A DNA stretch of 20,734 nucleotides, taken from positions 1-20,734 of IMG/VR virus record IMGVR_UViG_3300026078_000099, one strand, 5' to 3'. The DNA is from a virus. The translations under genes were made by a program, and so were the position numbers. Of this stretch, positions 1,353-4,392 are shown piece by piece. The notes under the pieces are model-generated. The model was not told the origin of the DNA. It saw nothing but the letters and a program-made list of their open reading frames with translations, and did no database searches. The stretch's first letter is position 1; every line of letters begins with the position of its first letter.

Positions 1353-1607
1353 TCAGGCCTCCTCTCCGTCGGTGAGGAACGAGCGCGACGTGAGCGCCAT
1401 GGTGACGACAGTCGCAGCAGCCTCTTCGGCGCTGGCGAAATCGTTGGCCCACGCAAAGCCCATGGCATCGACCACGGCATCGAAAAGGCGATTGCTGGTG
1501 CGGATGTAGGCGCGCGGATCGGCGCAAGCCTCGAACTCGCCCATGCGCAGAAGCGACGACAGAAGCCCGTCGATCTGTTCGAACTGGTAAAGGGTGATGG
1601 TGGCCAT
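1353..1607 (-). CDS. First gene of leftward early operon, 84 aa
   Basis: The start at 1607 (MATITLYQFEQIDGLL) is chosen because it sits four bases after a GGAGGAA Shine-Dalgarno sequence; the upstream in-frame ATG at 1619 would place that motif inside the gene. The protein is helical and acidic, with no membrane segment or known motif. Its leader runs back about 30 bases to the predicted PL start, so it is the first product of the repressor-controlled leftward transcript. Lambda uses this place for the antiterminator N and early functions, but this protein lacks an Arg-rich RNA-binding tail, so I do not propose N activity. Confidence 0.8.
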   Translation of the reverse strand: MATITLYQFEQIDGLLSSLLRMGEFEACADPRAYIRTSNRLFDAVVDAMGFAWANDFASAEEAAATVVTMALTSRSFLTDGEEA

Positions 1608-1643
1608 CGTTTCCTCCATTCGCTCCGGGGAGCTTGTGGAGGG

Positions 1644-1672
1644 ATATTGGCGCGTAGTTTTCTACACGTCAA
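1644..1672 (-). promoter_or_regulatory. Leftward early promoter (PL-like)
   Basis: On the minus strand a -35 TTGACG (1672-1667) is followed after exactly 17 bases by a -10 CAATAT (1649-1644). An operator dyad occupies the spacer. Predicted transcription starts near 1637, giving a leader of about 30 bases with a GGAGGAA ribosome site before the gene starting at 1607. The rightward promoter at 2483 uses the same -35 hexamer. Confidence 0.7.
1654..1665. promoter_or_regulatory. Repressor operator, left cluster, site 1
   Basis: GTAGTTTTCTAC, a 12-bp dyad with GTAG/CTAC arms, lies between the -35 and -10 of the leftward promoter, where binding would block RNA polymerase. The identical 12 bases recur at 2495-2506 over the rightward promoter, with matching flanks (C before, AC after). 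Confidence 0.7.
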
Positions 1673-1681
1673 GCACTAAAT

Positions 1682-1693
1682 GTATTTTTCTAC
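1682..1693. promoter_or_regulatory. Repressor operator, left cluster, site 2
   Basis: GTATTTTTCTAC differs by one base from the site at 1654-1665 and shares the downstream ACACGTC flank. It is centred 28 bp upstream of that site, just behind the -35 of the leftward promoter. A weaker half-match (GTAGCC at 1704-1709) may be a third, degenerate site. Confidence 0.6.
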
Positions 1694-1759
1694 ACGTCGT
1701 CGCGTAGCCTTGGCGCGAATCAACCCGCCACCCTGACAGCCCCCTCCCCTGTAGGAAAC

Positions 1760-1794
1760 GCACAAACGAAAACCGCCCCGGTTTCCCGAGGCGG
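1760..1794 (-). terminator. Rho-independent terminator of the repressor/secreted-protein transcript
   Basis: Read on the minus strand, a 9-bp stem (CCGCCTCGG with CCGGGGCGG, one G-T pair) closes a GAAA tetraloop and is followed by TTTTCGTTTGTG. It lies about 50 bases after the stop of the gene at 1843-2076 and before the leftward promoter, so it would keep repressor-operon transcripts from entering the early-left genes. Confidence 0.8.
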
Positions 1795-1842
1795 CTGGAT
1801 TGCTTGGTTGAGGTGGTCCGGGGGGAGTTCAACCCCTCCCGA

Positions 1843-2076
1843 TCACCAATTCGGCTTCGGCGGTGCATAAGGGTCAACGGTACCCTGCTTGCCGGTGTAA
1901 GGATTGACGTTGCCCTTTGTGGACCAGTTATCCGCCTTCGTGCTGTTCGGCGCGGTTTGCTGGTGGGGCTGGACGTAAGTGCCATCGTTGCGGACGTAGC
2001 CGCGAACGCTTGTTTGCTTGGCGACCGCCGGAGCGGCAATGGCAAGGACCGCCGCCGCGAATATCAGCTTCTTCAT
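1843..2076 (-). CDS. Small secreted protein, probable lysogenic-conversion gene, 77 aa
   Basis: The N-terminus is a textbook Sec signal peptide: MKK, a hydrophobic core (LIFAAAVLAIAAPA) and a likely cleavage site after AVA (residue 19). The mature part of about 58 residues is polar and rich in Gly, Pro, Asn and Thr (GYVRNDGTYV, PHQQTAPNSTKADNWST, NPYTGKQGT). It resembles small periplasmic or secreted proteins that I recall from many proteobacterial chromosomes. The start is set by an AGGAGG seven bases upstream. The gene follows the repressor on the same strand after a 41-bp gap with no visible promoter, and a terminator follows it. It would therefore be expressed with the repressor in the lysogen, as expected of a moron. 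There is no cysteine at the cleavage site, so it is not a lipoprotein. Confidence 0.85.
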   Translation of the reverse strand: MKKLIFAAAVLAIAAPAVAKQTSVRGYVRNDGTYVQPHQQTAPNSTKADNWSTKGNVNPYTGKQGTVDPYAPPKPNW

Positions 2077-2117
2077 GGTTATCCTCCTGTTGATGCCCGC
2101 CCAAACTTGTTGGCTGG

Positions 2118-2432
2118 TCAGCCGTTAGTGCCGTCGCCCTCGTTGGTGAATGTCTCCAAAACCTGAAGCGCCTGCTTGCGGCGGCGCTCGGGTATGTGGT
2201 CCCACACGAAGGAAACCTTATCGTCGTCCGGATCGCCAAACATAAGGTGGCGCAGCGAAACGCCCAAGGCGCGGGCTATGGCCTCCAGGTTCTCGACCGT
2301 GATGCTCTTGGTCTGGCGCGTCATGAATTTGTGCAGCATCGAGTCCGACAGCCCGGCCGCAAGTGACACGCTCCGATAGGTGGCGCCGTCCTTCGCGTCG
2401 ATAACCCGCTGAATTCTGGCCCGCAAATCCAT
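2118..2432 (-). CDS. Short XRE-family phage repressor (CI-like), 104 aa
   Basis: An N-terminal helix-turn-helix of the XRE/Cro-CI type is visible (about residues 17-60: TYRSVSLAAGLSDSMLHKFM, then ITVENLEAIARALGVSLRHLMFG). A short charged tail follows (FVWDHIPERRRKQALQVLETF), which may dimerise. It is much shorter than the ~230-residue lambda CI and has no S24/LexA-type peptidase domain, so RecA-stimulated self-cleavage is not possible from this sequence. I chose the start at 2432 (MDLRARIQ) because the longer frame back to 2519 would read through all three operators. No Shine-Dalgarno precedes the ATG; a CACAAT -10-like hexamer ends six bases before it, which suggests a leaderless message. 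It diverges from the Cro-position gene at 2518, and that arrangement marks it as the immunity repressor. Confidence 0.85.
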   Translation of the reverse strand: MDLRARIQRVIDAKDGATYRSVSLAAGLSDSMLHKFMTRQTKSITVENLEAIARALGVSLRHLMFGDPDDDKVSFVWDHIPERRRKQALQVLETFTNEGDGTNG

Positions 2433-2438
2433 TGCAGG

Positions 2439-2467
2439 ATTGTGCCAGTAGAACCCTACGCGGGGCG
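2439..2467 (-). promoter_or_regulatory. Repressor maintenance promoter (PRM-like), tentative
   Basis: On the minus strand CACAAT (2444-2439) lies six bases before the repressor ATG, so transcription would start at or next to the ATG. The position 17 bases further upstream (2467-2462, CGCCCC) is a poor -35. A poor -35 is typical of promoters that need activation, and an operator lies three bases beyond it. This is inferred from geometry, not from a strong hexamer match. Confidence 0.4.
2448..2459. promoter_or_regulatory. Repressor operator, right cluster, repressor-proximal site (OR3-like)
   Basis: GTAGAACCCTAC (reverse complement GTAGGGTTCTAC) keeps both GTAG/CTAC arms of the operator. It falls between the -35 and -10 positions of the predicted repressor promoter, where binding would switch off repressor synthesis, as lambda OR3 does. 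Confidence 0.65.
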
Positions 2468-2470
2468 AGT

Positions 2471-2482
2471 GTAGAATACTCC
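2471..2482. promoter_or_regulatory. Repressor operator, right cluster, middle site (OR2-like)
   Basis: GTAGAATACTCC; its reverse complement GGAGTATTCTAC matches the GTAGTTTTCTAC site at 10 of 12 positions. It abuts the -35 of the rightward promoter (2483) and is centred about 44 bp upstream of the predicted repressor transcript start, close to the activating position of lambda OR2. Confidence 0.6.
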
Positions 2483-2511
2483 TTGACGCCGTACGTAGTT
2501 TTCTACACATT
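2483..2511 (+). promoter_or_regulatory. Rightward early promoter (PR-like)
   Basis: TTGACG (2483-2488) and CACATT (2506-2511) are separated by 17 bases, with an operator dyad in the spacer. Transcription would start about seven bases downstream, at or next to the A of the ATG at 2518. No Shine-Dalgarno is present, so the first message is probably leaderless. The -10 is weak by E. coli standards, which is common in alphaproteobacteria. Confidence 0.6.
2495..2506. promoter_or_regulatory. Repressor operator, right cluster, Cro-proximal site (OR1-like)
   Basis: GTAGTTTTCTAC is identical to the left site at 1654-1665 and lies in the spacer of the rightward promoter, reaching the -10. Binding here would block early rightward transcription. 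Confidence 0.7.
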
Positions 2512-2517
2512 GGGCGC

Positions 2518-2727
2518 ATGACGGAAACTCAGCAGCTCATCGCGCGCATCAAGGCGCTGGCGGAAAAGCAGGGTCTCGCGCCTTCAACGGTCGGGGCCAA
2601 GGTTCTCGGCGGTGGCGCAGTTCTGGCGGCTCTGGAAAGCGGAAAGACCATCACACTCGCAAAGTATGAGCGGGCAAAGGCGGCGCTGGCCGAGATGGAG
2701 CGCGCCGAACCCACCAAGGCCGCCTGA
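2518..2727 (+). CDS. Cro-position early regulator, 69 aa
   Basis: This is the first gene to the right of the operator cluster, divergent from the repressor. The small helical protein (LIARIKALAEKQGLAPSTVGAKVLGGGAVLAALESGKTITLAKYERAKAAL) has the size and helix-turn-helix spacing of Cro-like regulators: a helix, a turn around GLAPSTV, a possible recognition helix and a terminal helix. The HTH call rests on pattern only. The start is fixed by the promoter geometry, since no ribosome-binding site precedes it. The next frame (2727) overlaps its stop. Confidence 0.75.
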   Translation: MTETQQLIARIKALAEKQGLAPSTVGAKVLGGGAVLAALESGKTITLAKYERAKAALAEMERAEPTKAA

Positions 2728-4050: not shown

Positions 4051-4392
4051 ATGCACGGTAACGCACCGAATGTATTCGCCTTTCTGGCCGCTCCGAGCCG
4101 AGACGCGTCCCTTTTCGCGGTGGCGAAGGTGGTTCTCGCTGTCCGGGGACTTGGGCTGACCTACAAGGAAATTGCCAAGGCCATCGACGTGTCCCCCGAC
4201 ACCATCGAGGGTGCTGCGGCTGAGAAAAGCCTGCTGTCTTTCGATGCCGTTGCGCGGCTTTGCTATCTGTTCCCCGCAGAGGCCGCCCCACTGTTCGACC
4301 TGATGCGGCCGACACGCGAACAGCCCACCATGGCGGAGCGGATCGAGCGGATCGAGCGCGAACTTTCAGCAATCCGAAAGGAAGCGGAATGA
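4051..4392 (+). CDS. HTH-like early DNA-binding protein, 113 aa
   Basis: The start at 4051 (MHGNAPNVFAF) is chosen over an in-frame start at 3997 because the longer version overlaps the upstream gene and adds only a Pro-rich stretch. Residues about 36-75 (GLTYKEIAKAIDVSPDTIEGAAAEKSLLSFDAVARLCYLFP) read as a helix-turn-helix of the XRE/sigma-like kind, with 'YKEIAKAIDVSPDTIE' as the core. The last 25 residues (ERIERIERELSAIRKEAE) form a coiled coil, probably for dimerisation. It could regulate the early genes or assist replication. Its TGA overlaps the next ATG. Confidence 0.7.
   Translation: MHGNAPNVFAFLAAPSRDASLFAVAKVVLAVRGLGLTYKEIAKAIDVSPDTIEGAAAEKSLLSFDAVARLCYLFPAEAAPLFDLMRPTREQPTMAERIERIERELSAIRKEAE

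Follow-up and report, generated by a model that had tools for sequence, protein, structure and literature searches.

The stretch of viral DNA analysed here (20,734 bases, referred to as the window) encodes podovirus-like head proteins (portal, phrog_1216; capsid, phrog_1328; terminase), a helicase of the DnaB type and a resolvase resembling RusA. It also contains a divergent pair of genes for a short repressor and for a protein in the position of Cro, together with five dyads and several promoter candidates, the coordinates of which are given in Table 1.

Table 1. Genes, dyads and candidate promoter elements of the locus (coordinates of the window; a dot stands for sites without strand)
Feature	Position	Strand	Remarks
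First gene of the putative PL-driven leftward transcription unit	1353..1619	-	ORF of 88 aa, unknown
PL -10 candidate	1644..1649	-	CAATAT
OL1	1654..1665	.	GTAGTTTTCTAC; in the PL spacer; equivalents in L007, L008, L023, L041, L046/L055 and L056
PL -35	1667..1672	-	TTGACG
OL2	1682..1693	.	GTATTTTTCTAC; upstream of the PL -35; distance to OL1 28 bp, in relatives 28-29 bp
Intrinsic terminator-like hairpin	1771..1796	-	separates the transcription unit of the repressor from PL
Repressor gene	2118..2432	-	XRE/HTH_3-type ORF, 104 aa; shorter in-frame ATG, backed by relatives; start 2432 possibly leaderless
PRM extended -10	2439..2447	-	TGGCACAAT; 6 nt before the repressor ATG; without recognisable -35
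O3 (OR3-like)	2448..2459	.	GTAGAACCCTAC; adjoins the upstream end of the PRM extended -10; window, L005 and L006 only
O2 (OR2)	2471..2482	.	GTAGAATACTCC; abuts the PR -35; its other edge precedes the PRM -35 position by a few bp
PR -35	2483..2488	+	TTGACG; 17-bp spacer; TTGAC[G/C] adjoins O2 in all lineages
O1 (OR1)	2495..2506	.	GTAGTTTTCTAC; within the PR -35/-10 spacer; equivalent place in 7/7 lineages
PR -10 candidate	2506..2511	+	CACATT; 6 nt before the Cro-position ATG
Cro-position gene	2518..2727	+	ORF of 69 aa; phrog_7669 (unknown function); four-helix, HTH-like

For the repressor the Pfam profiles HTH_26 and HTH_3 score above the cut-off and only HTH models pass; the S24/LexA-like peptidase domain, a defining C-terminal feature of lambdoid CI proteins that serves cooperativity and RecA-stimulated cleavage, was searched for and no peptidase model matched the 104 residues. 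Its AF2 model consists of a five-helix HTH and C-terminal helices of low confidence, and the fold matches in the PDB are P22 C2, 434 and SinR-like proteins (E 0.005-0.06). Having an HTH_3-type fold with a canonical recognition helix by both Pfam and PDB folds, the protein can be assigned to the XRE (HTH_3) group. A sequence search of the PDB gave one marginal regulator match, 4ICH. An antirepressor would be one option for the induction of a repressor without S24 domain.

The Cro-position protein is modelled by AF2 with a pLDDT of 84 and helices at residues 3-18, 22-30, 33-40 and 47-62; its matches to PDB folds are weak (E > 0.5). A homologue of this protein is encoded at 5001-5195 of contig L011 (and in L012), with a TTGACC promoter-like sequence upstream. 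The leftward 88-aa ORF has no match in Pfam or PHROG. The DNA around the hairpin (1715-1797) is 80% conserved in the related contig L023, where it also lies beside OL.

Three dyads of the GTAGnnnnCTAC type had originally been predicted between the divergent genes, and they are found at 2448, 2471 and 2495, the 2471 dyad being imperfect with one mismatch in its right half. The predicted spacing agrees with the distances from start to start (23 bp for 2448-2471, 24 bp for 2471-2495), and the centre of the O2 dyad is 44.5 bp away from the A of the repressor ATG, where about 44 bp had been given. The outer copies also lie where they had been placed, the left one at the repressor promoter (O3 adjoins the PRM -10) and the right one within the spacer of the rightward promoter. 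Two further dyads of the same type are present at 1654 and 1682. The consensus is better written as tGTAGnnnnCTACa, as the four central bases are variable.

Allowing at most one mismatch, GTAGNNNNCTAC matches six times in the window against 1.8 expected matches; none of 100 shuffles reached six, and five of the six matches fall within 1654-2506. An independent matrix of 18 positions was built from 20 sites of five other lineages, with the sites of the window excluded. Applied to the whole window, this matrix ranks the five dyads as the five best positions, with 24.8 bits (2495), 24.5 (1654), 23.5 (1682), 19.4 (2471) and 10.4 (2448), followed by the next-best position with 8.5 bits; the training sites score between 17.7 and 25.9 bits. 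Chance palindromes were rejected as an explanation for the set of five on the basis of this ranking under an independently trained matrix.

Dyads in related contigs and the protein they probably belong to

Viral contigs were searched for the repressor with protein and profile queries and for the sites with DNA patterns. The same module with all five sites occurs in L005 and L006, whose aligned DNA segments are 93-99% identical to the window, with one short piece of 88%. In six divergent lineages (L007, L008, L023, L041, L046/L055 and L056/L057) a repressor of 33-45% identity is encoded together with a Cro-position gene oriented divergently from it. L023 and L046 were first picked up by the DNA dyad pattern alone and both encode the repressor and the Cro-position protein, an unbiased link between sites and repressor. 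No repressor was matched in the other contigs picked up by the first pattern besides L023, nor in L047, L049, L050 and L052, and these were set aside as chance matches. In 12 whole records all matches of the R-Y 12-mer dyad lie in OR or OL except for one in G403. That relatives with the same repressor should keep the dyads holds for two OR sites and the OL pair in all lineages, but not for the third site, which is absent from six of them.

No close relative was found in the phage and plasmid collections, the repressor search of the phage collection listing Atu_ph08 only (41.5% over 63%); the Cro-position protein had no match in the phage collection and the L041 repressor none in the plasmid collection. 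A loose peptide pattern derived from the repressor alignment hit, among the matches listed for genome contigs, only unrelated XRE proteins, and 399 sampled genomes of one phylum gave one weak match (G083, E 5e-9).

The dyads are most likely the operators of the divergent repressor, because they follow it in seven lineages, occupy fixed positions at the promoters, recur at OL and change together with the recognition helix. Very improbable, in our view, is the alternative that they belong to the Cro-position protein and not to the repressor. The dyad region does lie directly upstream of the Cro-position gene, and in lambdoid phages repressor and Cro share sites (PMC4488713). However, L011 and L012 encode a Cro-position protein which is 75% identical, yet they have no repressor match and no dyads, while L007 keeps the dyads with a Cro-position protein of only 37% identity; in addition, the sites change along with the recognition helix of the repressor. 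Sites of the Cro-position protein only were therefore rejected, as the dyads follow the repressor, whereas binding of the same operators by both proteins may occur.

The change of the repressor operators with the helix is found in L056. All four sites of this contig (2926, 2950, 4873 and 4902; operator sequences TGTAATTTATTACA, AGTAAATTCTTACA, TGTAAAAAAATACA and TGTAATAATATACA) have GTAA instead of GTAG half-sites, perfect or with one mismatch, and the recognition helix reads SDSALHKF instead of SDSMLHKF (M32A), with SDS[M/L]L.KF in the other lineages. This covariation is a single evolutionary event which includes all sites at once, and the Cro-position protein of L056 has diverged too. We interpret the L056 operator set together with M32A as a natural change of immunity specificity.

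Promoter geometry and the third site

On the repressor side the start of the O2 12-mer is exactly 50 bp away from the ATG in seven of seven lineages. The TGGCA of the extended -10 begins 35 bp after the O2 start, again in all seven, and the gap between hexamer and ATG is 6 nt; the longer TGGCAnAAT is found in five of the seven, its last letters being different in L008 and L056. At 15-19 bp spacing the best PRM -35 match in the seven lineages has 2-4 of 6 letters, mostly three or less. On the rightward side O1 fills the PR spacer, and a -10-like hexamer follows 17 bp after TTGAC[G/C]; from its end to the Cro-position ATG there are 6-7 nt in six lineages and 10 nt in L041. The distance between O1 and O2 is 24 bp in all lineages but L041 (27 bp). 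The PR -10 elements are poor in comparison with the sigma-70 consensus, the rules of which may not be those of the host, and a consensus promoter scan does not call the candidate of the window. If these -10 elements are used, there is no room for an ordinary leader, and thus the mRNAs of the repressor and of the Cro-position gene are probably both leaderless.

The left operator consists in every lineage of a dyad pair located past the repressor gene, with 28-29 bp between the two sites; TTGAC[G/A] stands one base before the second OL site, and the putative PL directs transcription away. The segment from the repressor stop to OL is a variable cargo slot. It is nearly absent in L007, L008 and L041, where the OL pair lies approximately 7-11 bp past the repressor stop, comprises about 0.4 kb in the window (1700-2117, with an ORF of 77 aa at 1843-2076 which has a signal-peptide-like start) and 1-2 kb in others (L009, 1660-3415; L023, 2250-3400; L056, 3450-4870). 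Just downstream of the left operator of L041 (3445-4551) there is an ORF with many near-identical short repeats of the SKLAASG type.

The number of OR sites differs between the lineages: three in the clade of the window, the third being weak, and two in the six others, in which the best third-site score is -5 to -11 bits compared to +10 to +11 in the window clade. In a matrix scan of the stretch from O2 to the repressor ATG, only the window, L005 and L006 showed a third site. For L056 the GTAG-trained matrix is not a fair test; there is no GTAA dyad in this stretch either. These comparisons leave a pair of sites at PR and another at PL as the conserved unit. Hence the claim that the locus reproduces the logic of lambda OR3-OR2-OR1 stands for the layout, the spacing and the short repressor, but the third site (window, L005 and L006) is not general. 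As six lineages possess only two PR sites, the three-site autorepression logic would be a local addition, if functional, and a gain of O3 in one clade appears more parsimonious than six losses.

The full lambda logic would mean that O1 and O2 repress PR and activate PRM, that O3 autorepresses PRM and that Cro prefers O3. We consider this possible rather than probable. In the window and its two relatives O3 stands at 23 bp from O2, adjoins the PRM -10 and thus has the side that OR3 takes in lambda; matches as good as this site are expected by chance 0.26 times per 20.7 kb and about 0.001 times per 90-bp intergenic region (first-order Markov null). Its core is unchanged between contigs with differing flanks; the three intergenic substitutions between the window and L005 spare every site core, which is weak evidence for conservation of O3. 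However, O3 is the weakest of the five sites, with 10 bits in comparison to 17-26 for all others, it is missing from the six divergent lineages, and binding of Cro to it is hypothetical. We can therefore propose a function of O3 no more than tentatively.

At the other extreme the operators could be two-site operators, with a repressor that only represses PR and PL, a constitutive PRM and O3 as a chance palindrome of a small clade. This reading, to which we give less weight and which we regard as rather unlikely, agrees with the conserved unit of two plus two sites, with the weak and unconserved O3 and with the fact that an extended -10 can function without a -35. By hand comparison the residues at the lambda positive-control positions also appear to be non-acidic in this repressor, which we take to count in its favor. 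What it leaves unexplained is the distance from O2 to the ATG. All seven lineages keep it at 50 bp, although O1-O2 can be either 24 or 27 bp, which suggests a role of O2 at PRM beyond blocking PR. This fixed distance together with the missing -35 suggests activation of PRM from O2, an activation towards which we lean slightly.

The sequences themselves show the sites in a fixed geometry, the way these go with the repressor, and the coordinated change. On this basis the region is very likely the immunity switch of a temperate phage, with the dyads as operators of the 104-aa repressor. In such a switch a repressor dimer would bind each tGTAGnnnnCTACa site. Binding to O1 in the PR spacer and to O2 at the -35 would silence the Cro-position gene along with the early genes to the right, and OL1 and OL2 at PL, beyond the repressor gene, would act likewise on those to the left. 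From O2 the repressor probably recruits RNA polymerase to PRM, with its extended -10 and without -35, and the mRNA made there for the repressor would be leaderless. In the phage of the window and its nearest relatives a protein bound at O3 would block the promoter, as the site lies directly upstream of TGGCACAAT, so that high levels of repressor, or the Cro-like protein, could turn the repressor gene off. Three relatives that possess this switch (G002, G406 and G407) encode tyrosine integrases. No integrase was found in the window contig, which is a fragment, so that lysogeny of this very phage is putative.

Likeness to known switches

In the literature searched, which covered part of the field only, this switch family was not found described. 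We regard the combination of features, with the sampled steps of site gain and specificity change, as a variation on a known type of switch; two plus two sites are listed for 16-3, small repressors occur in P2 and BPs and a reduced operator set in 933W. Our proposal, put forward as conceivable and still short of probable, is an undescribed family of minimal lambda-like switches with a repressor of ~105 aa, two OR and two OL sites and activation from O2, in which one clade gained a functional autorepression site and another exchanged one operator letter in each of its four sites along with a single residue of the recognition helix. If true, these phages would offer natural snapshots of the assembly of a lambda-type operator and of a change in immunity specificity. 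They also form a small divergent test set for two old questions, namely what share of the three-site operator of lambda is required in a working lysogeny switch, and by which steps the specificity of a repressor shifts jointly with that of all its operators. Because the layout is very compact (~85 bp between the start codons and a 104-aa repressor), it is testable in reporters.

At the sequence level the locus shares with lambda an operator which overlaps PR and PRM and is flanked by divergent genes for the repressor and the Cro-position protein. It also shares a second operator, located past the repressor gene at an early promoter directed leftward (1654/1682 in the window, present in all lineages). 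The distances of 24 bp (O1-O2) and 23 bp (O2-O3) match the operator spacing of lambda, and in both cases the PRM -10 is set 6 nt before the ATG. The cI mRNA of lambda is leaderless, and lambda rexAB occupy the place of the cargo slot between repressor and OL. In contrast to lambda, the repressor lacks a domain for cooperativity and autocleavage and the operator sequence is unrelated, as had been anticipated in the original prediction, which described a different operator and a much shorter repressor in this layout. Further differences are the three OR sites in one clade only, the two sites at OL and the Cro-position mRNA, which is probably leaderless too.

The operator sequence of Rhizobium phage 16-3 differs from these dyads. 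For the C repressor of this alphaproteobacterial phage the site list in PMC12429752 gives oL1, oL2, oR1 and oR2, and it is by this list only that we liken its two sites at each of two operators to the switch described here. The C repressor of phage P2, which controls lysogeny, is similarly small (99 aa) and its sites are 22 bp apart from centre to centre; unlike the repressor here it binds two 8-bp direct repeats (PMC4752584). Mycobacteriophage BPs shares a repressor of similar length (gp33, 103 aa in its active form), 12-bp palindromes and an operator inside PR, between -10 and -35. It differs in its integration-dependent immunity, the 33-residue-longer form of the repressor, the five genome regions bound and a full site made of two palindromic half sites (PMC4557955). 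A precedent for a leaderless pair is the telomere phage PY54 with divergent cI/cro genes, the mRNAs of which are leaderless by RACE; unlike here, it has one operator only (OR3), bound by Cro (PMC4488713). The lambdoid switch of 933W lacks OL3, thus having fewer than six sites, and its binding is not cooperative, indicating that the design tolerates such losses, although its three OR sites and its usual lambdoid repressor are unlike the situation here (PMC3317979).

In the rightward early region of the window a second HTH protein is encoded at 4063-4389 (+), with weak sigma-r4/Xre-like Pfam matches. The position of this gene corresponds approximately to that of cII in lambda.
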